Assembly: GCA_001574975.1 (NCBI GenBank)
Contig: KQ965739.1
Span: 226,656 to 290,655 of the forward strand
Length of the DNA stretch: 64,000 nt
Source: Gonapodya prolifera JEL478
Lineage: Eukaryota > Monoblepharomycota > Monoblepharidomycetes > Monoblepharidales > Gonapodyaceae
Reading direction: 5' to 3'
The notes beneath the pieces were generated by a model, which worked only from the letters and a program-made list of their open reading frames with translations, did no database searches and had not been told where the DNA came from. Position 1 is the stretch's first letter; each line of letters begins with the position of its first letter. The position numbers and the translations under genes are program-made. Shown one piece after another: positions 16,550 through 48,837 of this stretch.

Positions 16550-19500
16550 TCAGTGGAAGTGAACAGAACGTACTCGTTCTGACCTGTTGCTCAGTGATTC
16601 AGCACCTTCGAACTGCATTTTAGCACTGACGCCGTCCAAACCTTGTGGCATCCAATATTCAGCATGTTCATAGCCAAGCACCAAGCCCTGTTGTTCTTTG
16701 AGTGCGGAGAGTGTTGGTTTTGCCGTTAGTGTTGGTTTGATGGAGGAGACAACTCCTCCATTCGTCCCACTAATGACGCATCGGTCAGAATCTCCTTGAG
16801 GCATTTTACCGCACATACCCCATCATTACCTTTGGTTCCTCGCTCTCCAACTCTCAGTCTCCTTTGAAACGTGCACGAAGACAGGAACGGCATCTGTGCG
16901 CTCGTGTGAGCAGCGTGCTCGAAACGAGTTCCCACACAAACTCACATCGTGGAAGCACTTTATTCGCGTACCGTCCAAAGTCCGCCATGAACTCCGAAGT
17001 GGGTCGCGTTTTTCCGGCGTCGCCAATGACAAGTGTGGCCACTTTATTGTGTGAAAGTCAGCTGTTTTTCCATCATCTGGTCATAGCGAGCTTGGGAACT
17101 CACTGCCTGGCCGATCTTCAGTGAGGGGAATATTGACACCTGCAAGGATACAATGCGATGAAGCAGTCCGAACCTCGAGCAGAAAGACAATGCACGACTC
17201 ACCGGCCACATGGATTTCCTGCACTCCCGAAAACATTCCAAGAAGATTTTCTACTTCTCGCGTGGTGACATAGTGAGACTGGAGTACTGTGAGATCGAGA
17301 TAAGAGGTTGAGGTGCTTTATCGTAACCGTACCTTCCACCGAAATCCACTGCCGACGTGACCGAGAAACCAGCTGCAGTTGTTGAGTCAGTCCAAATGAA
17401 CTTTTTGAGAATCCCCCACGGACGCTATTCAAGTCTACCATTCATCATTTGAATTGCGAACAAAAAGTCCCTGGAAAGTCACGTTGAAAATCGAAATGAG
17501 GAAGCACGTGCGAGAATTTGAACGGGACCAAACTCACTCCTGTACGTATCCACAACTTCCCAGACCAAAAACTAAGTGTGACTTAATACGTCAAAAAACC
17601 ATAGGGTTGGATGCAACTCACGTCGCCCTTCCTTAACAACATGGAGTTCATCGAACACGATCAATTTGAGATCACAGTTTCACACCGACTGCGGAATCAC
17701 CAGCCTTACCTGAACACATCCCTGCACATCTCCCTCCCTCCCCGTCCCTCGCCAGACACCACCGGTTGCTCGGACACCTATCACCAAACAGCCCAAGCCA
17801 TCACACGCGCCTTTCCACCCGCACGCATGTCTCGCCAGAACTCACCCTCCCAGCAGGCACAGGCACGACACACTCCCCCAGCTCTCCGATCCTCGCCTCC
17901 ACGCACAATCTTGTCCGCGCGTCTCGCTTCAGCGCGCCCGTCTGGACGTCGACGCTCACGAGAGCGGGAGCTGCCCCACGGCACACGGGACGGTCATTGG
18001 CAAGAGTGATGTACGGAAACGCCACAGTCGAACGGCTTACCGAGCCCACGCCATCGCGACATGCGGCCGAATCGGCCCACGGATCCGGTGCCTTCTAGGT
18101 TGAGGGTATGGTCGCGGCGTAGTGCAGGGGGGGCCCATGCAGGTAGCTGTGGAGGAATTTTTGGGTGTGAACAAGCACCTCGCAAGACCCGCCAAGGCGG
18201 AAACCGCGGTGCGCGCTTACGTGCAACTCCACGACATCACGCACGCGAAACCGGTCGTGGAACTCTGCCAATGAGGCGCGTCAGTCGCTGCTCGCAGCGC
18301 ATCACGTCCTGGACACCGCACAATCGGAAGTCGGAACCCACCATCCCTCTCCTCGGCCCCCATCCCCGCGCCAGCAACTCTTTGCACACCATGGGCCGCC
18401 TCCACGTCGGTGCGCTCCTCGGACAAGAGCAAACGGGCCAGTTCGTGGGTGTAGAAAAGAGTCGTGGCTTGGTGGTCTGCGCAGGCTTGCCAGAACGACG
18501 AGGGGTGGACGTCGAGAAGGGGAAGGGAAAGGGGCACAAAAGTGCCTGAGCGGGAGAGTGTCATCTGGAAATGAGGAGACACTTTGTATTGTTTCACCGG
18601 GGTGAAAAGTGGTCCGGGAGGCGGCACCCACGAGGAAGGATATGAAAGACGTGGAGTGGGACGGCGGTAGTGGCGAGATGACGACGTCGTGGGTGTGGGG
18701 AACGGGGAAGCTTGGAAGTTGGACGTTGGACGAGGGGGGTTACCGGGTCAGGATGCACCAATACGTGAAGTGAGGTGGTGTCAAGACCCAAGGAACGTAC
18801 CCCAAGTCCTTTGGTGCTTCGAGGGAGATGGCGAGGGCGTGGTCGATGACGATGTGGTGGGGTGGACTGGGGAGGTGGTGGGTCAGCCACGGCAGGACAG
18901 CCACAAAACAGGTCAAAATTTCGCACCCAGCGGACTTGTGTGAGGTTCAAGTTCAAACGAGTGTAAGGAGAGAGGGAATATGACGGAGCAATTGGAATGA
19001 GGTAAAATCGACCCGCTCGCTCACATTCCGCGTAGCCGTCTCAAACACCACTTCAGCCAGCCTAGCTTTGCTCTTCACCTCGTGCAGCGTGCTGCCAACC
19101 TTTGCCGCCTCCCCCGCTCCCTCTCCCGCCGCCGCTCCCGCTGCGGCTTCCAACCTCTTCTCACTCATAGTCCCGTCGACCGCAAACGCAGGCGTCTCTT
19201 CCTTGACCCCGGGCGCGTCCTCTCGGTGGGACCAGAACACGAGCCGCACGCTCATGGCGCGGAGTTCGGGAAGGATGGAGCGGACGGCGTGGATGCGCGC
19301 GGCGTCGAAGATGAGCACGGAGGGCGGGGTGAGGTGCATGTGCAGGCATGATAGGACTGAGGGCAAAGGGCAGTGGGGAGGTAGAGTCAAATGAGGAGAG
19401 GGGTTGGCGGTTGGGAAACAGTTCGTCTCATCAGCCCTTCACGAATCGTTTCCCTTTGGTCTTCCCTTCGCGGTCGCCCGCTCCCCTTCGCAATACATTC

Positions 19501-20277
19501 ACCTCCAGCGGGAGTATGCGCTCCACACTGTATCTTTCGCGCTTCGCGCAGATCTTCTCCTCCGGCGGAAAGTGTTGGTCATCGCCAAGTGGCGCTAGGC
19601 CTCGGGCTCGCTGCGATCGACCCTCCCCACCACCTTCCCTACTTACGGGAACGGCCCTTAGGATCGGTGTCATGGGGGCTCTGAGGAAAGGTGTGGAAGC
19701 TGAGGTAATCATTGGTGCGACGAGCAGTTGTTGGTCCAATTTACCACGATGCAGCCGGCTTTGATGGCGCCGAGGATACACAGCCATACCGGCGGTGCGT
19801 TGGCCATGGCAAATGCGACGCGGTGTCCGCTCTGCACACGTAATGTGGAGAGGAGGTAGAATGCGATGTGGTCGGAAAGAAGGTCGGTTTCTGAATGTGA
19901 TGAAAAAACACCGTGCGGTCAAGCTACCGACGCAGAGCAATCTACAGTGCGTGAAAAGAGACTCACCTCTGTAAGACCACTCCCTGCAAAACGACGAGTC
20001 CCGAATAGCACATCGCCGTGGGTGTCGTTGCGCAGCGGCGGCAAAGGACGCCAGACAGTGATCTGTGCGAGATGAGGTCCGCAATGCGATGTATTTGGCG
20101 AGACGGCGACGTCGCCTACGAGAAGTGGATTTGGCCGATAGCCACCCGCATCGCAGACGTGTTGTGTTACCTCGCTTCTGCCCAATGCGCAGAGATGCCC
20201 AGCTCCGCGTCAATGTAGAGCGCGCACACGCATGCTGCGAGGATTGCATGTGCGGGTGAGAGTGCAGGCAGATCCAT
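16550..20277 (-). CDS. FATP/Fat1-family acyl-CoA synthetase homologue with degenerate catalytic motifs
   Basis: Family members activate very-long-chain fatty acids and aid their uptake. Twenty exons (first 20277-20171, last 16769-16550) join in phase to 704 residues, close to the usual 620-680. Recognisable parts: N-terminal membrane anchor (AILAACVCALYIDAELG), WSYRETDLLSDHIA, GHRVAFAMANAPPVW with GAIKAG, DVVISPLPPSHST, FWQACADHQATTLFYTHELARLL, FHDRFRVRDVVELH, GSVGRFGR, FRWKSHYVTTREVENLLG, and RPGMATL before LPRYAVPVFVHV. Key catalytic motifs are altered: the AMP-binding loop TSGTTGLPK reads TCFVAVLPW, YGxTE is absent after VVELH, and RTGD reads VWEV. The frame survives across 19 introns, so this looks like an expressed pseudoenzyme, not a dead gene. 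One exon is 10 nt (17631-17622). The 290-nt intron 19357-19646 contains the GC-rich repeat described separately. Confidence 0.8.
19440..19625 (-). repeat. GC-rich modular repeat inside FATP intron
   Basis: Fills most of the 290-nt intron 19357-19646. Read in the sense of the gene it contains CCCGAGGCCTAGCGCC (complement of 19591-19606), a TCCGCCGGAGG block, GCGCGAAGCGCGAA and GTGGAGCGCATACTCCCGCT. The first matches the repeat in the SDR intron and the last matches the repeat in the transporter intron. The modules form short hairpins around GCGC/GGCG cores. Confidence 0.65.
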
Positions 20278-20501
20278 GCAGAATCGGACGAGTGATCGGT
20301 GGCGATCGCACGAGGCAGCACGGAGCACACCTATTGGTAAAGCATCCTGCAGGTGACGCAGACTCTGGAAAACGAATTATCTCGCGTGATGGTTTTTGAT
20401 GCTACGGGACATGTAATAAGAGACGAGGAGGGTGAAAGTGAACAAGCGGCCGGCTCGAAATGAAACCGAACCTCCGAAACCACACCTCTCCATTTCTCGC
20501 C
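20278..20501. promoter_or_regulatory. Divergent promoter region, FATP-like / SDR
   Basis: 224 bp separate the start codons of two divergently transcribed genes that may both act on lipids. Such a short shared region probably contains both promoters. I see no recognisable named element; the call rests on gene arrangement. Confidence 0.45.
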
Positions 20502-22047
20502 ATGTCGGATCAATCACCCTCAACTCAGCCTCAATTCAGAGTCGCGCTCATCACAGGCGCCGGATCGGGTACGCATCGCTCGCGAAAAACTCTCCACTCA
20601 AATTCATCGGGGCCTTTCTTCACATCGCTCCCCCATTGCTCCACCCACATCCAGGCGTCGGCGCCGCCGCAGTCGAAGCACTCATCACCTCTCCCTCTGC
20701 CGGATCCATCCCCTGGCACGTCGCCCTCGTCGGCCGGCGCGAGCAGCAGCTCCGCGACACCGCGACCCTTTTCGACCCTTCCGGAGCTCGCACGCTCTGT
20801 GTCGTGGGCGACGTCTCGGACCCAGACGCCGTCGCGGCCGTGTTTGCCCAAGTCGTGGCGAAATGGGGCCGCGTCGACGTCCTGTTCAACAATGCAGGAG
20901 TCACCAACGATATGGGCGTGCTTTTTGAGGACATTGCAGCCGCGGATTGGAAACGCGTTATTGACATAAACCTCACGGGTTCGTTTCTGTGTGCGCAGGA
21001 GGCCTTCAAGGTCATGAAGCGACAAGGCGGAGGTGAGTTGGTGTCCGACCAGGTACGAGCAATGCGAATAGAGGGAGGACACGTCGAGCGAAGCGAGACC
21101 CGAGGCCTAAGCGCCGAAAGGCGCTGACCGAGGCCATTTTCTCGCGGAGCGAACCCGAGGCCTAAGCGCGATAGCGCTGACTGAGGCTGTCGAGCGCATC
21201 GAGACGTCTGCAGGAAGTGAATTACCCTATGGACTGGAACAGGGGTCGCGGAGCGAGCTCAGGGCCGAAGTGCGCAGCGCTGGAAGAGAATTCCGTCCGA
21301 GGCGAAGGATCCAACGTGGAGTGGAATACTCATTGCGAAGCGATATCGAGGTCAAGGACAAGTTGGTACTTTATGCTCTTGTTGCACTTCCCTCCCCCCC
21401 CGGCATTCGCTCCCCCCTTCACCCCCACCCCACCCCACCCCACCATCTCAAGGCCGCATTATCAACAACGGCTCCGTCTCCGCCATTGTCCCGCGTCCAA
21501 ACTCGGCCCCATACACCGCGTCCAAGCACGCCATTTCCGGACTCACAAAATCCCTCGCCCTTGACGGCCGCAAATACAACAGTCAGTCATCCCTTGCTCT
21601 TACCTCTTTTCCCTTCCCATCGTCAAACGCGCCTGATGACATCGGGTCCTACTCTCTTACACTTTGTCCTCTACCAATCTTCCTCGTCCGATCTCCTTGA
21701 ATCCTCCTACCCTTACCACCCCCACCCCCCAAAGTCGCATGCTCCCAACTCGACATCGGCAACGCCGCGTCCGCGCTGCTCACAACCATCGGGTCCACGG
21801 GCGCCTTGCAAGCCGACGGGTCGCGCCGCCCTGAGCCCACCTTTGACGTCAAAGAGACGGGGCGCGCCATACGCTATATGGCGGAATTGCCCCCAGAGGT
21901 GCGTGTAGTTAGCGGTGTGATCATTGGTGGTGTGCGCTAACACGAGTCCATCCGCTGTGGCACTTGCGTCTGCGTCTGCGTCAGGTCAATGTCCTGGGCA
22001 TGCAGATAATGGCCACGAAGATGCCTAGTTGGGTTGGTCGTGGATGA
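20502..22047 (+). CDS. Short-chain dehydrogenase/reductase (SDR)
   Basis: NAD(P)-dependent oxidoreductase of the classical SDR superfamily. Exons 20502-20568, 20655-21032, 21453-21581, 21735-21898 and 21985-22047 give 266 residues, a typical length. The nucleotide-binding motif [16 protein letters not shown] spans intron 1; [10 protein letters not shown] supplies the NNAG motif; the catalytic triad is present as Ser in NNGSVSAIV and Tyr-Lys in [10 protein letters not shown]. An alternative in-frame ATG at 20460 would add 14 residues. The substrate is unknown. It is divergent from the FATP-like gene. Intron 2 is 420 nt, the longest in the window, and is filled by the GC-rich repeat modules; its 3' end is an unusually long C-rich tract. 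Confidence 0.9.
21083..21345 (+). repeat. GC-rich modular repeat inside SDR intron
   Basis: Lies in intron 21033-21452. Two copies of CCCGAGGCCTAAGCGC (from 21099 and from 21154) are each followed by a short loop and GCGCTGAC, giving small hairpins. Each is preceded by a GCGAAGCGA or GCGGAGCGA word; further degenerate units follow near 21248 and 21333. The orientation matches the direction of transcription. Confidence 0.7.
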
Positions 22048-22338
22048 ATGATGACCCGCCGACGATGAGAGAGAGAGTGTGTGTAAACATTGCATCATTG
22101 TGCAATGAATGTTGAGCATTAAGTCTTCAACTCATAAAGAGTGCGTGTGAGACAAGAGGGGAAAGAAGACATGTGATCGAACACGAACCATGGTATAGCA
22201 GTTATTAGATTTGCGATGAAACAATGGTATATTCAAACTATGCAATAGCCTTTCCTGCGAAATTAGTACCCGCCAGGGTGCTCGACCCTCCATAAACCCC
22301 AAATACCCCACCCCAAGGCCCCAACGCACCGCCAACAC

Positions 22339-25300
22339 TCACGCCACCCCACTAACCACAGCCGCCTCCCCCAACTTGCCACAGAACGTGTTGTGGCCCA
22401 GAATCTTCCAGTCCCGTTTTTGGCTGAAAGAACAAATGCAAAAAGCATCGCATCAATAATAGCTCCACGTCTAACATTGAAAGCCAACGTGCACACTCAC
22501 CATCGACGTGAGCAGTAACGCCTCGACTTGCTAGGAACCCCCGCACACATCAAACTTTCAGCATCCACCCCTCTCGTGATTCCAATACTCTCGTCAACTC
22601 ACCAGCCCCCGCACACCGAAATCACCATGTCCTCTGTCTCTTCCGTCCCACATACAGCGCACGTGAGAATCTCGTGCTCCTCACCTAGGGGCGAGAACAA
22701 CAAGGGCTGCATTGTCTCCAACCGTACCCGCTCCTCTTGCTCCTTGCGGGCCTGAGCTTCACGCTCCTATCAAGTCGGAAGCGGGGGGAGGGGAGGGGGC
22801 GTGTTCAGTGCAGGCACGACTTCAATTCAACATTGGTGCTTCGCTGCCTCACTTCCATCTCCTCTGCTTCTTTCCTCTCTCGTTCCTCCTTCTCCCTCTT
22901 GAGCCGCTCGGCCTCTTTCCTCTCTGCCTCTTCCTTCTTCTGCCGCTCAGCTTCCCCCCTCTTCTTCTTCTCAGCTTCCTCCTTGGCCTTCTTCTCTGCC
23001 TCCTTTTTCCGTTTGGCCTCGTCCTCCTTTTTGCGCTGTTCTTCCTTCTGCTTTTGAAGCTGCTCCTGTTTGATTCTTTGCCGCTCCGCTTCTTCCTTCT
23101 GGATAAAAAGAAAGCAAACAAAACGGTGAGACCGACAGGTGGACAATATTATCGGCATTCCCAACCGACAGTACCTTTAACCTTTCCTGTTCACGAGCTT
23201 GACGCTCCTTGGCCTTTTCAGCTTTGCGCTTCTTCCGCTCCGCTTCTTCGGCTTGCTTGCGCTGTTTTTCGGCTTGTGCAAGTCGGGCTGGTAATGAATG
23301 GCGTAGAAGTCAGTGAACGATGATATTTTGGTGATCTCCTTTGCTCACCTCTCTCCTGAGCCTCCTGTTTGCTCCGTTCCTTTTCTGGATTGCAGAACAC
23401 AACCAAGTCTCAAATCGACGTCATATTTGTCACTCGGGAGGCTACGTACCCATTATCTCCTTCTCCTTCTCCGCAACTTGTTGCGCTAACAGCTTCTTCA
23501 TCTGCTCCAGAAACTGAGCATTCGCGTCGGTGGACACCTCATCACCCACGCCTTCGCTCCGGCTTCCCACGTCACTAGCCATGTCCTCGTCTTCGTGTCC
23601 ACTTTCGCCATCCGAGGTGGACCGTGGTGCACCACCTCCACCGTGAGTTGCGCTGGCCCCGCCCGTGTAATCGAACTTATCAGACTCAACAGACTCAGAA
23701 TCTGAGTCCTCGCGATCCATCCCAGGTACCACGAGCTTCGGCGCCAATGGTGGAGCAAGCTCTTCATCGGACTCAGAATCTGATTCGGACTCCACCTTCT
23801 TCGAGGGACCTCCCTTGGAATCCGGTTTCCATTTTGGAGAAATGTCGTCGTCAGAGTCGTCAGACTCAAGACCGGGAGGCTCGTCGTCGTCATCATTATA
23901 TGTTCTCGGCGGTGGGAAAGATTGTGGTGTCGGTGTCGGTTTTGCTTGTGGTTCTGGGGCTTTCGGAATGAACAATTTGTGATCGTACGATTTTGGGAGA
24001 GACGAGAGAATCCGTTGGGCAGACGGTTGACGAATATACTGCACATTCAATGATGGGTTGCGATAACCTTCTGAAATCATCGTTTTGAGGCATGTCTTAC
24101 CTTCCAGAGGTCAAGATTTTCAAAGTATGCGTTGCCTAGCAGGGGAATTTGTGCATACCGAGTCACAGCCATCCCCTTTGATCGTGGAATCCCAGACGGC
24201 GCTTTCTTTTCTTCGGCATCTCTCCAGCTCTTATTCAATCCGTCAAACTCCTTCTGGAAGTCCCTTTCACGTGACATTAGTCGTGCAACAAAATCAAACT
24301 TGTCATCTCGACTTGAATCCACGAGAGCTACAATCGCGTCTACCACATCGTTGTCATCCAGCAGCTTCGGGTCGCGTTTCAGTCTTTCTGTGACAGGTAT
24401 CACAAAAGATTGTTGGAGCATTTCATCTGAGCGCCAGAATCGGGTAAACATAGTGATCATTTTCACGGCTTCATATGCGAACCGCCTGTTTGGTCGAATG
24501 ACATGTGCGCTATGTTATATGCCAAACGCAACAACACGTCACAAGGACACACTCACCACATCACTGCTTTAAGACGCCAGCGATCTTCGCCGGTCCATTC
24601 GGCCACGTCGAGTGCTACTTGCGCTATTTTAATACAGCAATACCTCGCGTCGCCATGGTCCAAGCCTGGCATACAGGAAAGAGAAAGGACATAGCACCCT
24701 AGCAAATCCTCCTCTGTCAGATTCTATCGAACACATTGATTGCGTCATCTCACCGATCGCTCTCACCCAATGAGCTCCCGGATCAACTCCATCTTTCCCG
24801 GTTTTGCGGTGCTTGTTGCGTTTCTCCTTCTCGCGAGAAGCTAGATGGACCTCGACATCTCCCATACACCTCCAGCTAATCCATTCAACATGTTGGAGCA
24901 TCTCCTTGTTTTTCTCCCAAGTCTGAGGCTTTGTGAGGTCCAACGATGAAGCCCGAGGAAAGAGTTGCAAGCACTTGTCCAAGTCACGGAGTGCGGGGAG
25001 AAGTTTCGAAGTATCCATAAGTAAGAAAGCGCGTGCACGAAGGTAGGTTGGCTCTTGCGCTCGGCCTGAACAACATGGGTTCAAAATGTTGATCCTATCT
25101 AGCGCATTCGGAACTGTTTGCTGGGCTGTGGTTCGAGCAAGTCCAACTGCGCTCCCATACAGCAAAGTTCATTCGTTTGCAGGTTTCAAGAAAATGTGGG
25201 ACCACCGGAAAAGTGGGACCGTCGAATCCTGCCCCGAGCTGAGAGCAAGTGCACGCTTACCACCAATAGACTCCGAAGTCGCTAGTGTGAGAGATGCATA

Positions 25301-25916
25301 AAGAAACTCCGCATCCAAGTTGTTGATGTTGGCTTTCCTGTGGCGCGCTAGAAGGCACAATTCAAGAACTTGTAAGCTTATTGTTGCAACTGGTAGAGAG
25401 ATTCCACTGATGTGGGTCGCCCAAACGCCCAAAACGTATCGACACATCCCCATCAAATACTCTCCACGTCAAAGATTTCAGTACGGGGTCCGGAGGGGCT
25501 TTTCATTGCGGGCTCAGCTTTCTCCTTGGGACGGAAAGCTACGGAGAAACAACCCACCGATCACCTCATTGAACTCAGAAAGCCTCTCCAGGAAGCATGC
25601 ACATGTCAACGGGTCAAGTTTCCAGGCTATGGTGAGGTTCTTCACCACCTCCGCATCCTGCTTGTTGTCGATCGCCAGTGCCGCTTTCCTGACATAGAGA
25701 TCAAGCGTTTTCAATAGTCCAATGGTTGGAGCAGTTGGGAATCGAGGGGCAAGGGTGCAGATAACGCACTGGATCGATGCCGAAATTGATTTCAGAGACG
25801 GGATTCGTCAACGCGAATGCATCGTAACCTACGTATTGCTTGGCCTGACATTGTTTCCGATGTTCTCCATCGTTCTCAAGCCGCAGGAGTTTTGGGCCCT
25901 TCTTCTTTTTCGCCAT
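22339..25916 (-). CDS. MYND-type zinc-finger protein with helical N-terminus and coiled coil
   Basis: Probably a protein-interaction scaffold; exact role unknown. Start MAKKKKGPKLL at 25916; stop at 22339. Spliced order: an N-terminal helical, TPR-like part (LTIAWKLDPLTCACFLERLSEF; YLRARAFLLMDTSKLLPAL with LDKCLQLFP), a second helical part (DVAEWTGEDRWRLKAVMW, then MFTRFWRSDEMLQQ), an acidic Ser/Asp tail, about 130 residues of Lys/Glu-rich coiled coil (23460-22850), and a C-terminal MYND finger. The finger is complete over three exons: CAVCGTEETEDMVISVCGGC, KSRRYCSRRC, then QKRDWKILGHNTFC, fitting the eight-ligand pattern. The stop lies 12 residues after it. One donor, at 25558, is GTGGGT. 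Several central exon borders are inferred and could shift slightly. TPR-MYND proteins are often assembly factors, including for cilia, but that is only suggestive here. Confidence 0.75.
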
Positions 25917-26013
25917 TGTGAAGAAGAATGCAACGCTGTGGAGAATGGGGATAATCAATGCGGCAACACCGACTGTACTATGCACATATATTTATTGAAT
26001 GCAAAGCCTAACA

Positions 26014-28170
26014 CTAGGGATAATTCAGCACTACTGATCTAAGAATCCACAGTGTACAGAAAGAAGTCACCCCGAGAGTGACCATATTCACAATCATAGC
26101 ATCTGATTCTTTCCCCACCGGTACATATAACGTCCAAAAGGTTGAAGAAACATTCGATGTAACCGAACTCCGTTCAATTGAAAGTGGTAGAGGAATTAAA
26201 ACTTGAGGAGGCAATCGATTTGTGAAGTTCAGGACTTCGCTCGAAATGTCGATGAACTCCAGTGGCTCAGTACATTGAGGAACGAGCACCGGTGGAAAGA
26301 AACACGAATTAGATTCATTCACTTGGGTAAGGAGATAAATTGTCGGAAGCGGAACGTGAACAGGTCGTTGACGTTCCTTGGATGCGTTGTCCATCAGTGG
26401 CGACTGGTACCTGAGATGCAAAGGAACTTCAATGTCGATCGACCTGCAAACCATTGGATTCGTTCGTGTGCCGGCATAGTACCGCTTTCCTCAAATAAAG
26501 AGCTTACCCAGACCAATCTCGCACTTCGATCACAAGGCCATTAGATCTCGAGCCCACCATCTCTGAAGCACCTTCAAGGTCTGCCTCGCCCCACGCACGA
26601 AACCGGAGCAATGCAGCCTCAGTGTAGTACTGCTCTCGACCATACCAACGAGCAATCTCGAACTCATCCACGAAAATGGTGTGGGGCAGAGCAATATGTA
26701 TCAGAGCGCTGAGATATCGCTCCTGCAAGGCTGCCAGCAGATCTGCAGAGGGCACTGGAAGATGTATGTGCAACGTTGGATGGAAGCCCTTTGAGGGCTC
26801 AAGTCGCGCAGACATTTTTAGTTCTGAAGCCAAAAGAACCGCCTCGCAGATCATTGGAACGCTGATGCTTCGAGGGCGCGAGGCACCTGGTGATTATGAT
26901 TATGAAATGACAATCCAAACAATCAGGAATCAACCCATGGACAACCCTTACCATGTACGAAGTGGCTTTTCAGATCATAGGTTGTGCCTGTGAGTGCGCT
27001 CTCTGGAGAGCGACTAACAACTTCCACGCCAATGTCTTCATTTTTCAAATCCAACAAAAAGTCGCCTTCAGAAGGTGATACTTCTCCAAAACTCAAATAT
27101 TCCATTGCTATGGAATCGATACTTCCATCGATGACTGCGCGAGCATCCACAACAAGTTTTGCATATGTCAGGGACGTGAGCCGGAGCGCCAAATTGTCAG
27201 GTGCCAAGTTGTGTAATTTGGACCAGAGACGCAAAAATCCGTGATGCATATCTTCCTTCTGGAATAAATAATGATATCGAGTGAGCAGGCTCTCTTCTAG
27301 GGGGAGAAAGGAATAAAATGGCTGAACTATCGGTAGTTTGGTCAGATCCATGGAACTAGAAGTGGAGTGCGACGTCTGAAATCCCGCTATCACTGGTCAA
27401 AGGCACGCCTTCAGGCTGCGCGACACTCACGTTTTCACACCCACAGCAAACTATTTCAGGGAGTAAATAGTTTACAAAACGGCACAAACGCCGCATAGTC
27501 AGATCCCCCTTTCTGAACAAAACTTGAGTGGGGAACATTTCCAAAAGACGCTTATGTTCTCACTCCAAATGAGCTTTTCCATGGACATGCCTGTCTCGCC
27601 ATTCAACGATGGCATGGAGACCAACGTCACCAGAAGAAACAAGAGGAGTCATCATTGCTGCAAACGTATCTCTGCCTGGAATACTTCTGGTAGATGAGTC
27701 GGTGTTTATGAGAGAGTGGGACATGAACATCAATGTGAAGCTCTCAACCTCGACGGGAAAGGACGGTGGATCGGCAATGCCGACTAATAGAATCATTTTG
27801 AGGTGATATTCCCGAAAGGGACAGAAAAACACTGCAAAGGTTGGTTGACAAACTGACCTTGGGGGAGGAGACTTTGTAGACTGCCTCGGCTCTTGAATCT
27901 CCAATTGAGACCTACAGGATCCTTGATGAGTAGCTTGTCATCTAACTTTGCCCCTCCAAACGCATCTGATTGTTGCGATTCCCGTTCCTCGTGCCAAAGT
28001 AGAAGGTGGGAGTTTGCAGAACTAGCAATTCCATTACTGATGTTCATCCGCCGATTACATCCAAGAGACGAGGTCGATAGATGATTCTGTGGGGACGAAT
28101 TCCATCGTGGGCTTGAGACAATTATTGCCGGCCAAGATAAGAGCAGAAGAATCTGGCAAAAGTATTTCAT
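26014..28170 (-). CDS. PIG-X/Pbn1-like subunit of GPI mannosyltransferase I
   Basis: Endoplasmic reticulum membrane protein that stabilises PIG-M/Gpi14, which adds the first mannose to GPI anchors. The C-terminal half is diagnostic: GFHPTLHIHLP, LPHTIFVDEFEIARWYG, then IEVPLHLRYQSP, and after a Pro-rich lumenal stretch VPVGKESDAMIVNMVTLGV running into a single transmembrane helix close to the stop. The proposed start at 28170 (MKYFCQILLLLSWPAIIVSS) looks like a signal peptide, as in animal PIG-X. Segments between (27904-27560, 27393-26923) are open and coding-like, but I could not settle all exon joins; the first junction would need a very short intron. It is possible that the 5' third belongs to another gene. 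The stop lies 97 bp from the start codon of the MYND gene, on the same strand. Confidence 0.62.
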
Positions 28171-28332
28171 GATGAAACACTCTCTCCCTTAGTGAGGCTG
28201 AAGGGGAGCCGCGTCGGCTGAGGGGCTTTGGGTGGCTTCTGTAATGAATTGGGGATGTTTCTGGTGTGATCCTGACTGTGCAAGATGGTGATTGCGAAGA
28301 TGAACACAACATATTATTCACGCCGCCTGTAT

Positions 28333-29000: not shown

Positions 29001-29240
29001 GGGAATTGACTGACTGAATGAAACAGCGGTGACCACAGCCGCCCCCAAACGCGACAACCAGCGCTTGCACTTTAGTGCTTCTTTCTTTCTTTCTCTCTGA
29101 TAAATGTTCGATAGCTTTACAGCAGCCTAAAAAAAATCTGCAAATGCATCAAACTGTGAAGTTGCGACTGACCGAAGCCTGCCAGCCTCAAACCACCTTC
29201 GTCAGCTCATGCCGAAGGGGTTTGAGCAACCTCCGGCAAG

Positions 29241-32519
<3,279 letters not shown>

Positions 32520-39067: not shown

Positions 39068-39149
39068 TAGAAACCATACGCATGTCATATAAAGTCATAT
39101 TTCAACTGTGTAGTCACGATTTGCAATTTTGCATGGTACATTCTACGCA

Positions 39150-40783
39150 CTATACATTCGTCATCTGTTTTGCCTGCTGCAGTACAGTAGCGACATCTCC
39201 CAAATTTTTCCTCCAAATCTCCAAATGGAGGCTAAGTGCCTTCCACTGTTGCAATTTGAACTCCCGATATGTGGTCCGGCGCACCTGTACAGATTTAGTA
39301 AGCTGGTCCATCTTCGCATCCAAAAGGTTGAGTCGGATTGCTGAAAAATCCATTGAAAATCATTTTCATGTCGCCCCATTCCAAAATTTGCCCCTCACCA
39401 TCAATAACCCAAACTTCGACCTCGCTCTCGTTGATCTCCAATGCCTTCGCTATCGTTTTGTAGTCCACTTTTCCGGGAACATGACGCCCGGTAACAGTGA
39501 TAAGGGTGAGAATTCGCATTTTCCGGATGTTGTCGTCATCCGAAAGCTCTGTATACTCAACGTCGTAAATTTTTGGAAATGAGAAACGGAAAATAAACTC
39601 ACTATATTGACCCAACTCGGAGCTGTGATCTTTCGACCACTTCAGGTAGGCAGCTAAGTCGCCGTCAAGGAACACTTGTAACAGCTGACACATAGGATGG
39701 CTCTTCTGAATAGCGCGTACTGCCGGGAGAGCGTGCACTTCCTCGAAGTTGAACACCTCAGGGGCTCGAACAGCCATTGCAACACACTCAATTGCACGCT
39801 CTTGAACAGAGGCAGCAAAAGGCGGTTCGGTGTATGTCGAAATGAGTTTGATCGCGGATTCGTAAGCCTCTCGTCTATCCAATGACGTTGATTGTGACGT
39901 TTTTTTGCAGAAGTGGAAGGTACACGTACCTCCCCGTTGGCTTTTCCTTGAATGTATCGCTCAACAATACATACAGCTGCCTTGTTTGTTCAAGCGACAT
40001 TCCCCATTCCTGTACTAGTGAGTCAATCGCAGCAATGTGGGAAGAAATAACGGACAGTTCATCATGGCGTGCCGCAACTTCAACGAGTCGCACAGTCACA
40101 TCGAAGCGGAAGGGAGAATTAGGTAGGAGGGAGTTGTAAAGAGTAGCAAGACTGTGATTGGAAGTCAATATTAAAACTCGCTGCTTGTGTCGTGTCTTCA
40201 ATTTTTTCAGGAGTGGCTCTACCCAACAGACCAACTCGTGGCAGCAGGGTTGTAAACATACATTTTGAGTTTCGCCTGTCCTTTGGCGTGTTCACTCTCA
40301 GCAGTTGCTGTCGCTATGCTCTGAACCACTTTGTTGTCCGCTGAAAGTTGGTTGGTGTCGGCGAGGATAGCAATAAGAAGTATGAAAGCTGGCTCCACAT
40401 CTGAACAATCCAAGTTGACAGAAACGATTTTCATTGTTTTTTCATAGGGATGAAGGTTCCCGGAATCGTCTGTCAGTGTGGGTTTTCACAACGAATTGAT
40501 TGAACACACTCACCCTTCTCCGATGCTTTTCGCAACACATCCACCCGTCCAACGAGCAAAGAAGACACATCCTCCCATCGTTCATCTTCTGCGGCATCCC
40601 GAACGTTGTCCGCAAGAGATTCATCGTCTGCAAGACCTGCAACGAGCTTCGCAAGCTTGATCGCCTGGAGAGGGAAATTCCGAGACAATTTCAGGCGCGA
40701 TCTTGGATAGTCTGGTCAAAACACAGTGTTCGCACTTGATATTTTCGTCCCTCAGGGGGAAACACTGCGCGGGTTGCTGCCAT
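39150..40783 (-). CDS. Eukaryotic translation initiation factor 3 subunit M
   Basis: PCI-domain subunit of eIF3, the scaffold for loading mRNA on the 40S ribosome. Seven exons (40783-40736, 40664-40514, 40400-40262, 40151-39930, 39874-39603, 39548-39399, 39340-39150) give 390 residues, matching the usual 375-390. Supporting segments: a helical N-terminus, LATLYNSLLPNSPFRFDVTV, EVHALPAVRAIQ, KMRILTLITVTG, the winged-helix KALEINESEVEVWVIDAIRL, and a C-terminal basic helix ending QWKALSLHLEIWRKNL. The 54-nt intron 39549-39602 lacks an in-frame stop, so an unspliced reading also stays open, but removal fits the family better. The gene converges with CHD1, only 82 bp separating the stops. Confidence 0.93.
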
Positions 40784-40864
40784 TAGTGGAAAAGAGAAAA
40801 TGAAGCTACATCATTACTTCCTTTACTTTACAAAAAGTCAGAACATGTTACCACCAGTTACACC

Positions 40865-43574
40865 TCAATGTACAATCGAAACAAGCTTTTCCCACTCAAT
40901 CATGTCTTTCAATCCTCCAGATATCCCAATTTCCAACGCGACTTGGCTCATCACCTCACCCTCGAACAACCCCGAGCTCCCCACCCTCGCCATAGCCATT
41001 CGCCTCCGCAACCACAAAGCGTGTCGAAACATTCCTAAAATTGTCGCGCCAGCCTTCCCTGGGCCTATCAAGCCCGCGCGCAGGTGAGAAACGAAAACGT
41101 AGAAATCAATTGCGGCCGAGATTCGGTCTCGACAAGGGCGACATATTGGTTCCCACGGCGCAGACTCGGTGGAAGGCTGCGTGCTAGTTTGTGGAGTGGA
41201 GAGGAGCCGCATTCTGAAATGACAGTCGCGAGTAGCATTGCACGACGGGCACTTGGCACGTGGCACCTGATCAAGTTGCGAGTTTTGCGAGTTTGTCGAT
41301 CCACCGAGAGTTCCTACGGACTGTTGTGCTGGGGACTGTCGAGCTTCCTGGTTGAATGGTGTGATTTCCAAGGAGGCTTTGACGACATGCTCCAACAACT
41401 TTTTGCGGAACGTCGAGGCCGCACCCGATCCGGCGGTGAATTTGAATATCGTGCCACTCGATGCAGCGTAGCTGAGTCCATAGTGGAGGCACGGTTCCAC
41501 ATCCTCCACAAGACACCGTTTGAGAAACTTGGTCGAGTGATTCAGAATGGGGTCGTAAGGAAGACTTGAAGATCCGACCGTCTGTTTAATATGCTCTTGG
41601 AACTCGGTGAAAATGATCCCGTCGATGAAATGCACGTTGCCAGCATCCGCTGCCACGGGGAAGTCCAACCTGTTGCGCATCCCGACGGACGCGATAATGG
41701 CGGCTGATCCCAAACTCGTCCTGCGAGGGTTCGACATTCGCCGAGGAGACGCTATGGGCGACACTGTGACTGAACCGCTGCGCTTTCGTGCCCCCTCCAG
41801 CGCGTGGAGGCAGCGCTTCATTTCGTGCAGTTCTTCCTCCCTTCCGGCGCACTTGCGGACCATGTCCTTGAGCTGCCCCGAAAGATCGCGATTCGTCACT
41901 TCGAGCTCCTCGCGCATTTTGGCTTCCTCGATGACCATTCTGTTGGCTTGGTCGAACAGCTGTGCGGTCAGCTCTTCAATCTCCTGTTCCAGTATGTCTT
42001 TCGCAAGCTGCACCTGCTCTCGATCTGTTTCAACCTCGCCGAGTTGCGTCGTTGTAGATGCAAGATCTTGTTGGAGGTCTTTGACGGTGTCGTTGAGGCG
42101 ATCGATCTCAAGCATGTGCGTTCGGCAGTTGGGGCAGTTTTGCGCACTGACAGTGCCTCGCTGTCCCGGCGTCCATGATTGATAAGGCGCGGAGGATGCT
42201 GGGTGTTTCGCCAGCGCTTGCGACGACGGGGGACCTGTGACGGCACGGGACTCCATTCTCGGTCCCGTGTGATCAGCCAAATCCCCTGCTTCATTGTCGC
42301 CAACGTCTGAAGCACTTGCAGGAGCTGTAGCGCGCGCAGACTTTGGTTTTTGGTGTGTCGAAGAGGAGGTGCTCTGATACTGCCTTTTTTCAGAACCAAG
42401 ACCACCTCCTTTCATTTGCGACTTGTCCAGGTCGTTCTCCGTGTCCTTTTTAGCGAGCTGCGCATCTCCGTTGTTTTTCGCAATGTGCGCAAGCGGTGCG
42501 TCCTCATCTTCCTCCGACGTGGATTCGGCTTCGAAGGCCATCTCCACCTCCCCCTCCGGGTTCAGTCGCGGAAGATTACACAGCAACGCCGGCACACCCG
42601 GGCGGAGCCGCGCGACGTCGAGAATGTTGCCCACGGACGCCTGGGCCTGCTTGAGGTAGTTCCAAGCGAGCCGGATGCGCTCAGACGATTGGACGTCGTT
42701 GTATTGTTTGGAGTCGAGGCGGCTTCCGTGGCCGCCGCCCGCGCCCCTCTCCTCGCTACTACCACTACCGCGGAGGTTGGAACCTCCGGCCGTGGACGAA
42801 CCGGTCTGGTCTCGACCGGGTGCAAGAATGCGATCCTCAAACACCGCGCCAGGTCGGTTGGAGGCAGTAGCGTTACCGCCCTGTGTAGGACTACTGTGTG
42901 CCCCTGCAGTTCCTTGATGTGTTCCTGCAGCCCCACCCGGTCTCCCATTGTCACCTTGAGCGGACATGGCCAGGACTTTGCCGAGAAACAGAATCGCCTC
43001 CTTGGTGGCAAAGTCGAGCCGGTGCAGCTTGACGCGCATGATGTCGATCACTGCGTTCTTTCGAGCGAGCTGGTCGGTGTGGAGGGCCTTGAGGGAGGTT
43101 ACTTTCTCGTCGTGCGCCTAACATGGAAGTAGGTTGGTACAGCCATCTCGCAGCGCGTCGCGTTAGCTCTTCTCAGAGCGTGGTAGCCATGCAACATGCC
43201 TTGCTATCACCCTCCTTCTCTGCAAGCGTGAGCTTCAGGCTCGTTATCGTGGCGTGGGCCTCGACGACAAGCGTGGCCAGCTGGTCCGTGGTGAGCGCAC
43301 GCAGCTTGTCCAGGTCGGGGGGACCCGCGTCCGTCAAGCATGCTCCAGGGTCCGCGGGGGGTTGTGATTGGAGTTGGAGCGGGGAGGGGGAGGGGAGGGG
43401 AGGAGCACCGGGGAGCTGTTTGGCGCTCACCCCGACCAGATCCCCGACCGAGCGGCTGACCGAAAGCCCGCCGCCCGCGGCGTGAGGGGATGATGGCAGC
43501 GGAGGTAGAGTTTCTGTTGCGGAGCGGTCGGAGAGAGAGAGAGCCGGGGTTGACTTTGAAAGTCTGTCTGCCAT
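40865..43574 (-). CDS. Sec2/Rabin-type Rab guanine-nucleotide exchange factor
   Basis: Activates Sec4/Rab8-type GTPases on secretory vesicles and, in flagellates, at the cilium base. Two exons, 43574-43200 and 43117-40865, give 875 residues. The Sec2 coiled coil is clear (ELTAQLFDQANRMVIEEAKM, then REELEVTNRDLSGQLKDMV). A Rabin/GRAB-like C-terminal half follows, with PYDPILNHSTKFLKRCLVED, a CPSCNATRDC cysteine pair, PICRPCRDRI and a basic LRRRMAMARVG helix. The N-terminal exon is Pro/Ser-rich, then a coiled coil (ALTTDQLATLVVEAHATITS). The phase-correct intron, 43199-43118, begins GCATGT after AAG, a GC-AG intron; the nearest GT would break the frame. Its stop is 82 bp from the eIF3m start codon on the same strand. 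Confidence 0.88.
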
Positions 43575-43785
43575 GCGGAGCGGGTGCAGGCACAGCGGCG
43601 CGACGCCGGGGCGAGTCGAGTGTTGCGGCGTGGGATGCCTGCGTTGCGGGCGGAATGGGAGCGAGTGGAGCCCTTGGTGGGAACACCGGGTGCGCTGGGA
43701 AGTGTGGCGCGGCACGTGTCCGCAGCGATCATCACAACTCTCCATCTTCGCTCTCCGTTTTCCAAGATTCAATCAAGCAAAAGCG

Positions 43786-44094
43786 ATGATGGCCACCCAG
43801 CCTGCGCCAACCGGCGGGTCCAAAACAATGCTCGAGCATGCCCAGCAGCAGGGGGGAGCGGGCCCGCCGGACGCCGCCGCAAAGTTCTCGTTCGCATCTG
43901 AGCCGAGAGCAGTCAAGTCCGGTTCCGTAAAAGAGGGAGGGACAGAGACGCCTAGTAAGAGCAAGTACAGGGACCCCAGGACACTGATGCAGCAGCAGTT
44001 TGGTGGGGCGGGGCAGCAAGTGCAGCAGCAGAAAGCACCGTGCGTTGACAGCGTTTCTGCCGGTTTTGTGGGGGCGCTGTATGACAGGAGATGA
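43786..44094 (+). CDS. Small Gln/Gly-rich protein of unknown function
   Basis: Single-exon frame of 102 residues starting MMATQPAPTGG and ending VSAGFVGALYDRR. It is low in complexity, with QQQ runs and a basic SKSKYRDPR segment. No domain is recognised. Codon use resembles its neighbours and the frame has a plausible ATG, 211 bp from the divergent Sec2 start. The stop codon lies only 34 bp before the radial spoke protein 3 start on the same strand, so the two could share a transcript or the second promoter could lie inside this gene. A flagellar role is possible by proximity only. Confidence 0.5.
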   Translation: MMATQPAPTGGSKTMLEHAQQQGGAGPPDAAAKFSFASEPRAVKSGSVKEGGTETPSKSKYRDPRTLMQQQFGGAGQQVQQQKAPCVDSVSAGFVGALYDRR

Positions 44095-44128
44095 GAGTGA
44101 AGAGGTCTTATTTTGATTTCATCATTTC

Positions 44129-45441
44129 ATGGCTGCGAAATTCGGGAATGTCGATACATTGCTTGCGTGCATTGGTACCACTCAAACATCGAACAGTCCT
44201 ACCAACATCATGTTCGACCGACGAGTCTACCGCGGCAACACGTACGCCTCGCCCGTCTTGCCTCTGGTGAGTCCTCACCGCTCAACCTCTCCTGGTGTCA
44301 CTTCACGCCGTCCGTCCACTCGTCTCACCCCCCACCCTCCCCCCTTCGTCAGCACGCCCAACCAGACCCCGTCGAAATCCACCGCCAATCCGAAGCCCGC
44401 CGCCGCGCCAAAGCCCGTCGCCGCGCCGAACTCCAACGTCGCGTTCGTACCCCCGATCCCGTTCAAGGGCGCAGGCACGCGGACGTGCAGACGGACCTGT
44501 ACCTGGAGGAACTATCCGACAAGGTCCCCGAGTCGCACGCGGGCACGCAGACGGACGCGTTTCTGGACAGATCACCGACACCCATGTATGTTCCGGCAAA
44601 GAGCGGGGTGGATAAGGATACGCAGATCGAGGATGGGGAGCTGTTTGATTTCGATTTCGAGGTGGCCCCCGTGGTGGAGGTTATGGTAGGCAAGACCCTG
44701 GAGCAGGCGTTGGCCGAGGTGATGGAGGAGGATGAGTTGGAGACGTTGAGGAAGAGACAGGTGAGTCGGCCCCCCCTCCGAGGTTTTGCGTGTGCGTGCT
44801 CCTTCAGGCAGACGTCACTGACAATCCTGCCGTCTCGTCTCTCGTCTCCAGGCCGAGTTCGAACAACGCCGCAACGCCGAACTGGCAGAAGTCCAAAGGC
44901 TCGAGGAAGCCGAACGTCGCCGCACCGAAGAAAAGGTACGTATCCAAAGTCCACACGTCACATGACTTGCGGATACTCATACCCATGATTCTTCTCATGA
45001 CACTACGACTCTACCCTTTCCCCCCCCTTCCCACAGGACCGCCGCCTCGCCGAAACTCTCCGCCTCCACCACCAAAAATCCGTCGCGGCCGCCAAGATCG
45101 CCGCCCGCTCGTTCGCCACGTCCTACCTGCACGACCTTGTCCCCGTCGCCCTGCGCCGGCTTGAGGACGAAGGATTCTTCTACGACCCGGTCGAGAGAGA
45201 AGTGGAGAGGTTCTTCTTGCCGTGGCTTACGGATAAAGTCGAGGGGAGGAGGATGAGAGAGGTGGGCGCGAGAGTGGTGGTTGATGGTACGTTGAGTCGT
45301 TTTGTGCGGTGCCGGGGTTGAGTGTGTGGTGGATTGTTAATCGTGATTGACTGTTTCGCATAATCGATAGACATCATTATGAACGCGCTTCGCAAGCTGC
45401 ATGGACGCGCGGCACCTGCACCTTCACCCACTGCTTCGTAG
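44129..45441 (+). CDS. Flagellar radial spoke protein 3
   Basis: Anchors the radial spoke to the axonemal doublet and binds PKA as an AKAP in algae and animals. Exons 44129-44266, 44353-44760, 44852-44935, 45037-45286 and 45371-45441 give 316 residues. Family motifs in order: NIMFDRRVYRGNTYA, QPDPVEIHRQSEARRRAKAR, RTPDPVQGRRHADVQTDLYL, GTQTDAFLDRSPTPMYVPAK, VGKTLEQALAEVMEEDEL, an EFEQRRNAELAEVQRLEEAE coiled coil, SYLHDLVPVALRRLEDEGFF and YDPVEREVERFFLPWL. It is shorter than animal RSPH3 but complete through the conserved core. It shows that the organism makes a motile flagellum. Degenerate copies of its last exon and 3' flank follow downstream. Confidence 0.96.
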
Positions 45442-46382
45442 ATTTCCAATTTGCGTTTTCGTTTTTCGTTTCTTGTAAATATATGATGATTTCGATGTGT
45501 TTGCGGTGCCACTGCCAGGGTGTGTGGAGGAATGGAAATCGCAATCGTCCGTTTTTCGCACAACTGCAATGGACAGATATCATTATAAACGCAAAACGCC
45601 TGCATCCGTGTCCGTGTCCGACCCTGCTTCTGCTTCGTAGTTGGCCATTTTTCAGTTTTATGTAGTACATGCTGATTTCGAGATGTTTTTTAAGCCTCAA
45701 AACCTTGCGGTCGTGTCCGTGATTCCTCTAGATTCTAGCGAATTGATATCCAGCTTATAACGGGGATATCTCTAGAATGACGTGAAACCAGACACCAGGA
45801 GAGGGGAGGTCTAGCATGACGTATTGCAGAGTAAAGCCATTTTCAATTTTTTCTGATTTCGAGGTGCTTTTTTGCCTTCGAACAATACAGTCGCATCAGT
45901 ATAACTGGTCTAGATCCTAGCCAATTGGTGCCCTACCTGAAACGCGGACATCACCGGAATGACGTGATCCATACGCCAGGTCTCTCTCGCAGTCAGTTTG
46001 CGAAACCTTACAGTCGCTGAGTCTGTTGATTGCACCACGGGGGCTGTGTGAGAAGATAGGCGGGCCGTACCCTCGTAGTGCAGTGGAAGGGTGTCCGGGG
46101 GAATTGATGTGGTGTGTCATCACCAGTCACACTCCGCCGTTCCGCCACACGGTTCGCCACAACCCGAGCAGGCAGTGCCGGAGTGTGCAGGACTTTGCAC
46201 GCGTCTGCTGTCGCCGGGGGAATGCGAACGCGTGGCAGAACTCGCGCCGGTCCGGCGGAGAAGCGGGGGAATCTCAGGAGTCATTTATCCGGCCCGGCTA
46301 ATATTTTGGTTCCGACGCCAAATTGAGGTGAAGAAAAGTTCACATCGCATCTCCTTCTCTCTCTCCCCACTCTCCTTGCACG
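45442..46382. repeat. Decayed tandem duplications of the RSP3 3' end and flank
   Basis: No gene is supported in these 941 bp. From 45574 a segment (GATATCATTATAAACGC, later CTTCTGCTTCGTAG) mirrors the last RSP3 exon around 45371-45441, with many changes. After it, two diverged direct repeats of about 145-150 bp follow each other: roughly 45655-45805 and 45837-45980. Both run from a TGATTTCGAG-GTG-like start, through a CTAGATYCTAGCSAATTG core, to ATGACGTG and CAGG ends. The rest before the transporter gene (46383) is GC-rich leader. Confidence 0.6.
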
Positions 46383-48837
46383 ATGGCCGAGGAAGCGAAA
46401 ACCGGAACATCGCAGGAACAGAGCACCAGCCCCGCAGAGCCTGCGCACCCCCCGCAGCTGGGCATTGTCTCGCACAGATTCCAGAGCAGAGCGAGTGGAA
46501 AGTCCGTCTCCGAATTGCCACTCCAGCGAATCGCATCGGACAGGCGACCGTCCATCGTTGCGGCACTGGCGTTTTCAGGGGATACGTCGGCACTGGTGGA
46601 CGCGACGCTCGAGGACGGCGACGGAGAAAAGGCGCCCGGAAGAGTCACCGTGCTCAAACCAGCGTCCAGCAGGAGGATCATTGCACTTGAGCCGTCGGAA
46701 AAGAGTGCGCATCCCGACGCAAACGGAAATGGAGGTCCCCGGCACTCTTCCGAGATGGCGCTCGTCGACGAAGACATGGACATTGAAAAGAACACCGACG
46801 ATATGCCCGTCTCCGGTGTCCTCGACTACCCAGAGGGCGGGTACGGCTGGGTCATCATCGCAGCTTGCTTCGTCCTCATGTTCTGCGGCTTGGGAATGCT
46901 CTACTCGTGGGGCGTCTACCTCCGCACATACGTCGCACTCGACATCTTTCCCGGGTCGACCTACTTCTCTTTATCTTGGGTCGGGTCTTTGACGCAGGGC
47001 GTCAACACCCTCGGAGCGCCGTTCATGGGTCAGCTCGCGGATAGGCTGGGGTCGAGGCTGATTTGCATCTTTGGCAGTTTGCTTCTGGGGGTGTCGTTTG
47101 TGTTGGCGAGCTTTTCGACGCAGGTGTGGCATGTGAGTGTCAAGCGAGGACCGCGAGCGAAGCGGGCCCGAGGGTCAAGCACGCAGCGAGTGTGTCCGCC
47201 AGAGGCGAGTGCCCCACGATGTGGAGTTATACTCTTGCGGAGCGAATACAGAGGATTTCACCGGAGGCGAATGATTCCACGAAGCGCGAATGATACAGCG
47301 CGGAGCGCATATTCCCGCCGGAGGCGAATGCTCCGCGAAACCGCGCTGCACCTCTTTTGTGATGCCCCGTCTTACCCTCCCTTCCCCCGCTCGTGCTCCC
47401 GTCCAGCTCTTCCTCACGCAAGGCTTCATGTTCGGTCTGGCATGCAGCGCGCTCTACTTTGGCTTGATCGGAATGCCCGCCCAGGCACGTACTTCGCTCC
47501 ATTTCTCCTCCTTCTTCAATCCATGTGACGCTTTTTACCCCACTTACCCCACTCCAGTATTTCCTCAAGAAGCGCGGTATCGCCGTCGGGTTCGCAGTCG
47601 CTGGCGGCGGGTTGGGTGGGATGGCGTGGGGGGTGCGTACTGTCACAGATTCTCCGCCCCGTATAGTCACGAGACTAACCTTCACCTCACCGTGTTGTAG
47701 CCAATCACCCAAGCCCTCGTGGACAACATGGGCTTCCGATGGGCGCTTCGACTGAGCGGGATTATTTCTGGAGGCGGTGAGTGGAGTCCTGAAAATGCGC
47801 AGGGTGGTCATGGTTCTTTAACCATCCCGATTCGATTCGATTCCCGCACCGCAGTGCTTCTGCTGGCGTCCCTGCTGCTCAAATCTCGGTTCCCCCCGCC
47901 CCCTCGCTCGCCGTTTTTCAACCTCGCGTACTTCCGGGACTGGAAATTCGTCGTGCTTTACTGTGAGTTCTCAAGCAGTCCTTGCTTGGTCCCGTAAGGG
48001 GGGCTGGCGGCCAAGTGTTCTTTCGCTCATACTTTGGCCCTGGATGTTTGCAGGTGCGTTTTTCTTCTTCCAGTTCGGTTTCTTCTTGCCATTCAGCTAC
48101 CTCCCCACCTACGCCGTCGGCGTCGGATTGACGAGCGGGCAAGGATCTTTTGTGCTGGGTGTAAGTCCACCTCCCATCCCCCAAACTTTTCGATCACGTA
48201 TTTACCCAACACGCCCACCTACTCCTTAAAGCTCACCAACGGCGTCTCAGCCGTGGGCCGAATCGTCCTTGGCCTGACCGCGGACCAACTCGGTCACTTG
48301 AATGCCTTCACGGTCTGTGAACTGGTCGCGCCGATTGCCGCGCTCGTGATCTGGCCCTTCTGCAAATCCATGGCGTCGCTGTGTGTCTTCGCGGCGGTGT
48401 TTGGGTTCTTTAGCGGCGGGTTCATTTCGTTGATGCCTACTGTTGTACGTTGCGGTTTCGTTCGATGTTTTCGGGGGAGTATTGGCCAGTGACGTGTTTT
48501 CAACACCAGATTGCGTCCGTCTTTGGAACTGAAGGACTCGGGTCACGCATGGGCATGCAGTTCACGTCATCCCTCGTTGGAGCGATTGCCGGCGGGCCCA
48601 TTGCCGGTGCATTGATTGACATGTACACAACCGTCGACCCCGTCAGCCGCACATCATCAGTCAACGTGAGTCCTCTATTGATTTCTGACTGCTTCCGCCC
48701 GCACACCTGACTCGACTCTTTCCTTCAAGTTCACTCCCATGATCATGTTTACTGGCGCGACGATGCTCGCAGGAGCCTTGCTCATTGCAGGAATGAGGAT
48801 GGTGGTCGCAGGAGGGGTGCTTATCAAGAGGGTGTGA
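46383..48837 (+). CDS. Monocarboxylate-transporter-like MFS permease
   Basis: Plasma- or organelle-membrane permease of the MCT (SLC16-like) branch of the major facilitator superfamily. Nine exons (46383-47132, 47407-47484, 47558-47632, 47701-47776, 47855-47962, 48054-48160, 48232-48444, 48510-48665, 48730-48837) give 556 residues. After a 150-residue acidic cytosolic N-terminus comes the MCT signature PEGGYGWVIIAACF, then twelve hydrophobic segments, with a GGGLGGMAWG loop in the middle and SAVGRIVLGLTADQLG in the second half. Substrate unknown; fungal relatives include riboflavin and monocarboxylate carriers. Intron 1 (274 nt) contains the GC-rich modular repeat. Intron 2 (47485-47557) starts GCACGT and must be a GC-AG intron to keep phase. 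The gene converges with RuvBL1, 158 bp apart. Confidence 0.92.
47143..47345 (+). repeat. GC-rich modular repeat inside MFS intron
   Basis: Lies in intron 47133-47406. It consists of units carrying GCGAAGCG or GCGGAGCG, a GCCGGAGGCGAATG-type core, and reverse-complement ends (CGCGGAGC against GCTCCGCG near 47299-47336), so it can fold into hairpins. GCGGAGCGCATATTCCCGCC (47300-47319) differs at only a few positions from a unit in the FATP intron. Confidence 0.7.

Follow-up and report, generated by a model that had tools for sequence, protein, structure and literature searches.

A short repeat shared by the introns of three unrelated genes, probably inserted into introns that already existed

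Repeats shared between introns are usually the first clue to introners, that is, to elements that create the introns in which they are found. This question is raised by three introns in the window analysed here (the whole stretch of 64,000 nucleotides, positions 226,656 to 290,655 of contig KQ965739.1 of Gonapodya prolifera JEL478), which lie in an SDR gene, a FATP-like gene and an MFS gene: did the repeat that they have in common supply the introns, as a preliminary description of this DNA had proposed, or did it arrive in introns that were already there? We confirm that the three carry one real, dispersed family of short repeats in the introns of unrelated genes, and think it probable that the repeat is a short non-autonomous mobile element that inserted into already existing introns. 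The host introns are as follows.

21033-21452, plus strand: SDR host intron, GTGAGT..AAG, 420 nt; gene at about 20502-22048
19357-19646, minus strand: FATP-like/AMP-binding host intron, GTAAGT..CAG, 290 nt
47133-47406, plus strand: MFS host intron, GTGAGT..CAG, 274 nt; gene at about 46383-48837

All three were placed by hand using protein homology, the gene finder having called none of them as given, and their splicing is predicted. Each spliced product nonetheless has a Pfam match that runs across the junction: a single adh_short match for the SDR protein (profile positions 1-188 of 195, E 4.3e-46), an AMP-binding match for the partial FATP-like protein (residues 2-288, E 4.2e-13) and an MFS_1 match for the MFS protein (residues 190-439, E 1.3e-29). 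With these three different domains the host genes are not paralogous, as is asked of the hosts of an introner family. The FATP-like (minus strand) and SDR (plus strand) genes stand head to head across 19357-21452, with their intronic elements separated by some 1.5 kb and carried on opposite strands of the DNA. In the MFS gene, the intron that follows (47485-47557, plus strand) is apparently of the GC-AG type (GCACGT..CAG); of three exon ends tried, the GC-AG one alone holds the frame (..GMPAQ to YFLKKRG).

In all, eight introns were added to the gene models by hand, the three repeat-bearing ones included, while four predictions were taken out, three on the antisense strand of the SDR gene and one a false intron of the MFS gene. 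By these models the window, which is eukaryotic, gene-dense and moderately GC-rich (~53%), comprises ~34.6 kb of coding sequence, 10.9 kb of intron and 18.5 kb of other sequence, and its 103 predicted introns have a median length of 69 nt (75th percentile 90, 90th percentile 223). The host introns, previously described as three of the longest, rank 3rd, joint 6th and 9th, with some of the longer ones being doubtful models; these ranks, like the intron share of non-coding DNA, rest on predicted gene models.

Aligned in the sense of their host genes, the introns gave Smith-Waterman scores of 47 (FATP-MFS), 32 (SDR-FATP) and 24 (SDR-MFS), against maxima of 17, 17 and 19 in 500 dinucleotide shuffles per pair, none of which reached the observed score; with one intron reverse-complemented, all three pairs fell to chance level (11, 11 and 10). 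The same pairs take ranks 1-3 among all non-overlapping pairs of the 103 predicted introns in both orientations, the fourth scoring 18. The alignments are collinear over 85-142 columns, the element interiors are ~65-80% identical between copies and exceed 1000 of 1000 shuffles in every pair, and single-sequence searches, which are independent of the profile introduced below, let the FATP copy find the MFS copy at 1.4e-11 and the SDR element at 6e-4. In pairwise alignment the FATP and MFS copies are 80% identical over 85 columns. The word GCGRAGCG occurs 17 times in the window (5.6 expected), with eight of these occurrences inside the three introns and all eight in the host sense. In these respects the preliminary description, which had reported one GC-rich repeat in a single orientation relative to transcription, is borne out.

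The elements were then delimited as follows, in part with an nhmmer profile built from four copies (two SDR, one FATP, one MFS), the E-values of which are not independent of it.

19487-19622, minus strand: FATP element, a 136-nt monomer (E 6.5e-34 with the nhmmer profile, which was trained on it)
47156-47339, plus strand: MFS element, 184 nt long and partly duplicated internally (E 2.6e-30 with the nhmmer profile, likewise trained on it)
21082-21354, plus strand: SDR element, ~270 nt, a truncated dimer of two head-to-tail copies at 21082-21231 and ~21242-21354

The two SDR copies score E 3.8e-24 and 2.8e-26 with the model trained on them, the second match extending to 21376, and the element is backed also by pairwise alignments with the FATP and MFS copies; the internal repeat of the MFS element pairs 47178-47219 with 47297-47338 (42 nt, 74%). 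A profile search of the window returned no fifth copy above threshold, the sole extra match up to E = 10 being 50229-50189 (E = 1). The window opens with 21 bases that match 19561-19581 within the FATP element at 81% identity, at a place where the profile search has no match; they could be a copy truncated by the edge of the window, but this lacks support.

What had been described as a set of loosely related modules thus resolves into collinear elements with sharp borders, which stop short of the intron ends and make up 47-67% of intron length. Of the words singled out earlier, the hairpin-core word CCCGAGGCCTAAGCGC is exact at 21099 and 21154 in the SDR element, but its FATP version is one A shorter, aligning only with gaps and escaping an ungapped scan; the GCATATTCCCGCCGGAGG unit is present in both the MFS and FATP elements (in the latter at 19502-19519, minus strand, with two mismatches), though its MFS position is 47307-47324 and not 47300. 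The element start is AGCGAAGCG-like, and the MFS and FATP elements terminate in GCGAA, directly 5' of the 3' direct repeat listed below.

By pairwise alignment, homology sets in between intron bases 25 and 51 and breaks off 67-130 nt 5' of the acceptor; by the profile borders, the flanks of the MFS, FATP and SDR elements measure 21, 24 and 49 nt on the 5' side and 68, 131 and 76 nt on the 3' side. None of the six flank pairs is alike above chance, and the C-rich acceptor tracts in which each intron had been said to end lie outside the element and have no shared sequence above chance. When nothing but the pairwise alignments is used to set the borders, all three elements prove to be flanked by an exact direct repeat of 6 bp, different in sequence each time and always internal to the intron.

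47150-47155, plus strand: 5' direct repeat ACCGCG, putative target-site duplication, MFS
47340-47345, plus strand: 3' direct repeat ACCGCG, MFS, directly after the last aligned base (..GCGAA)
19623-19628, minus strand: 5' direct repeat GGGGAG, putative target-site duplication, FATP
19481-19486, minus strand: 3' direct repeat GGGGAG, FATP, directly after the last aligned base (..GCGAA)
21076-21081, plus strand: 5' direct repeat AGGACA, putative target-site duplication, SDR
21355-21360, plus strand: 3' direct repeat AGGACA, SDR, 3 nt past the end of the SDR-MFS alignment

A gap of 1 nt separates the 5' repeat from the start of homology in all three cases, and 0, 0 and 3 nt separate the end of homology from the 3' repeat. 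The putative duplications occupy intron bases 18-23 (MFS), 19-24 (FATP) and 44-49 (SDR), the 5' copies starting 17-43 nt past the donor and the 3' copies stopping 61-124 nt short of the acceptor; a search for target-site duplications had been suggested in the preliminary description, and putative ones are seen here in all three introns, but not at the splice sites. The chance of a repeat of at least 6 bp per element is 5% (slid borders) to 11-16% (local shuffles) with looser windows and 0.005-0.014 under a rule anchored to the borders, giving joint figures, if the three are independent, of ~1e-4 to 4e-3 and 2e-7 to 3e-6, respectively; the anchored rule was set after the repeats had been seen, and the loose joint figure is therefore the fairer. 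Mismatched border partners share at most 5 bp in all six pairings. The natural reading is that these direct repeats would be target-site duplications.

Synthesising these observations, we suggest that a GC-rich, apparently non-coding element may have landed in a pre-existing spliceosomal intron, within the first 35% of its length, and that insertion would have duplicated 6 bp of the target. In the host introns the donor and acceptor lie outside both the duplication and the insert, so that the intron would keep its own splice sites and the element would be spliced out along with it; the introns would then be older than the insertions, and the element would have been moved by enzymes encoded elsewhere. 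Removal of the insert and one copy of the repeat leaves ‘empty-site’ introns of 84 (MFS), 148 (FATP) and 141 nt (SDR), lengths that fall within the range of the predicted introns, and a scan for the YTRAY branch motif has matches at -78 and -34 in the empty site of FATP.

A number of points weigh against this proposal. Only three insertions are known, and the YTRAY motif was not found in the MFS or SDR empty sites. The direct repeats were spotted before being tested; in the narrowest of the windows (8 nt outside and 2 nt inside the border) the SDR repeat is 5 bp only, and the SDR element, the 3' border of which is less certain, ends in GAGGTCA before its direct repeat, not in GCGAA. A mobilising class is not indicated either: the first and last 30 nt form no terminal inverted repeats in any of the three elements (p 0.57-0.91), no tRNA gene was found within the window, and Rfam gave no element match at E up to 1, its sole match in the window lying elsewhere, at 15729-15826. 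Introns account for 37% of non-coding sequence by the gene models, and for all three copies to fall within them has a probability of ~0.05 under random non-coding insertion; three agreeing orientations have a chance p of 0.25, which leaves a sense bias unproven and weakens the earlier argument from orientation, even though all three copies do lie in the sense of their host. Neither figure establishes a preference.

No relative was found in viral, bacterial/archaeal, phage or plasmid collections: exact-pattern scans of viral and genome (bacterial/archaeal) contigs for the repeat gave no matches, blastn with one of the three introns (MFS) returned no phage records and a single plasmid record at chance level (E 0.8), and searches of viral contigs with the RSPH3 and MFS proteins gave no relative. 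This, too, counts against the proposal, but the collections are not meant for fungi, so the absence of relatives says little and novelty stands on weak grounds. In the literature on introners, intron gain and repeats in fungi and chytrids, no such element appears in the titles and abstract openings of the matches listed.

Amongst the alternatives, the one that fares best, though we consider it unlikely, is an intronic minisatellite or satellite, the units of which grow by slippage and spread between introns via recombination or repair, with no transposition involved. The tandem dimer of the SDR element, the internal partial duplication of the MFS element and the recurrence of degenerate words such as GCGRAGCG all speak for it; on the other side, the introns align collinearly in pairs, Tandem Repeats Finder reports no array across the elements at a score of at least 30, and each insert is flanked by its own distinct 6-bp direct repeat.

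Improbable to much the same degree is an introner family, the origin first proposed; on this reading the element would itself have formed each intron on entering an exon, and the ends of the introns would later have changed past recognition. The presence of all three copies in introns of unrelated genes, each in the sense orientation, and the large part of each intron that the element makes up are as one would expect of introners, but interiors that retain ~65-80% identity are difficult to square with intron ends that retain none that is detectable, and the direct repeats sit well away from the exon junctions. Gozashti et al. 2022 (PMC9860276) ask that, at both boundaries, similarity starts no more than five bases into the exon or ten into the intron, a rule with the stated purpose of excluding secondary insertion into existing introns, and that a family comprises at least four introns; all three known copies fall outside the boundary rule, and three similar introns were found in 64 kb. 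Some of the introner families described there have target-site duplications, and from that paper and one on Amoebophrya (PMC7789003) such duplications would be expected at the intron ends, whereas the repeats here are intron-internal. The likeness to introners is therefore that of a short repeat in introns of unrelated genes, with target-site duplications in some families; the difference is that similarity reaches close to both splice sites there (PMC9860276) and is strictly internal here. Much the same holds for the Introner-Like Elements of Dothideomycetes (Collemare et al. 2015, PMC4457414), which are also fungal and also give related intron sequences, but where the unit that multiplied is described as an invasive intron; in the present case the repeat includes neither the splice sites nor the ends of the intron. 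The introner elements of Amoebophrya share with ours an intronic position and direct repeats of a few nt, but there the direct repeats, 3-5 nt long, overlap the borders between exon and intron, and the two ends of the intron are joined by inverted repeats (PMC7789003), whilst ours have intron-internal direct repeats and lack terminal inverted repeats. No word beginning with ‘chytr’ occurs in the main text of PMC9860276, so far as that text was available.

Very improbable, in our view, is a structured or regulatory RNA hosted in introns, such as a snoRNA-like gene, for which a sense-only orientation would follow. Besides the orientation, a short stem that in some copies follows a CCCGAGG-like motif (five motif copies gave shuffle p values of 0.0035, 0.05, 0.10, 0.24 and 0.03) and the folding of the whole FATP intron (z -2.10, with 6 of 200 shuffles as good) could be cited in its favour. 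However, that fold is, by the appearance of its centroid, mostly pairing of the intron's own flanks, z is 0.39 and -1.10 for the other two introns folded whole, and none of the four elements outdoes its shuffles in folding, whichever strand is taken (z -0.5 to -1.2 in sense). The stem lies 3' of the motif in three SDR copies and in MFS, with one SDR stem at p 0.10, and the best FATP stem is different from the others and not significant; we make no claim of conserved structure. The lack of an Rfam match and a twofold variation in element length also speak against the RNA reading. Chance or compositional likeness between GC-rich introns, to which the moderate GC-richness of the window and its degenerate GC-rich words might lend some colour, is refuted by the shuffles of all three pairs and by the chance-level scores in reverse orientation.

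To what, then, might an inserted element of this kind be likened? Miniature inverted-repeat transposable elements (MITEs) are short and non-coding, have terminal inverted repeats and a target-site duplication, and often lie near genes; our elements share their size, their apparently non-coding nature, their association with genes and, tested after the fact, 6-bp direct repeats at all three pairs of borders, but are without terminal inverted repeats. Short interspersed nuclear elements (SINEs), which are dispersed, flanked by direct repeats and have no terminal inverted repeats, are alike in each of these respects; unlike them, ours have neither a tRNA gene or Rfam match, where a SINE has a head derived from tRNA, 5S or 7SL (a decayed head could escape both searches), nor an A-rich or simple-repeat tail at the element borders, and SINE duplications are as a rule longer than 6 bp. 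Judging from its sequence features, the family would be best explained as one that behaves like a small transposable element and falls outside the introner, MITE and SINE classes.

Elsewhere in the window, a Radial spoke protein 3 gene (44129-45441, plus strand; Radial_spoke_3 in Pfam, E 3.6e-90) is axonemal and thus indicates a flagellated organism; the preliminary description of a dispersed family in unrelated genes of what is plausibly a zoosporic fungus can accordingly stand, its introner origin excepted. A fragment of RNA polymerase I RPA2 has as its best solved match 7aoc, which we take to be from fission yeast and which adds to the plausibility of a fungal source. Two adjacent stretches are repeated ~1 kb apart, at 14928-15112 and 15934-16116 (69 nt at 80%, 113 nt at 77%), possibly as a tandem duplication. 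Between the RSPH3 and MFS genes lies a 59-nt direct repeat (45727-45785 and 45909-45967, 75% identical, 182 nt from start to start), both copies of which end alike in GAATGACGTGA.

It is tempting to speculate further, albeit doubtfully, that the family may represent a new intron-targeting class in a zoosporic fungus, one that inserts in the sense orientation with a target-site duplication shortly 3' of 5' splice sites, enlarging introns and not creating them, perhaps since the reverse orientation gives false acceptors. Selection against antisense copies through such acceptors would fit as a possible filter: taking the three elements together, 1 of the 54 AGs scored in sense is acceptor-like (10th percentile of real acceptors or higher), compared with 7 of 21 in antisense. 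Against this, six of the seven antisense sites are in the SDR element, no such site occurs in the MFS element in either orientation, the acceptor matrix favours pyrimidines, and donor-like sites show the opposite trend (three sense, one antisense).

Finally, this case illustrates that collinear homology, a single orientation and unrelated hosts are compatible with signs of secondary insertion, and it is because these can coexist that the deciding check becomes where the duplicated target lies with respect to the splice sites. Were a preference for introns and for the sense orientation to hold true genome-wide, the family would provide a tractable example, in early-diverging fungi, of splicing acting to filter the orientation of insertions.

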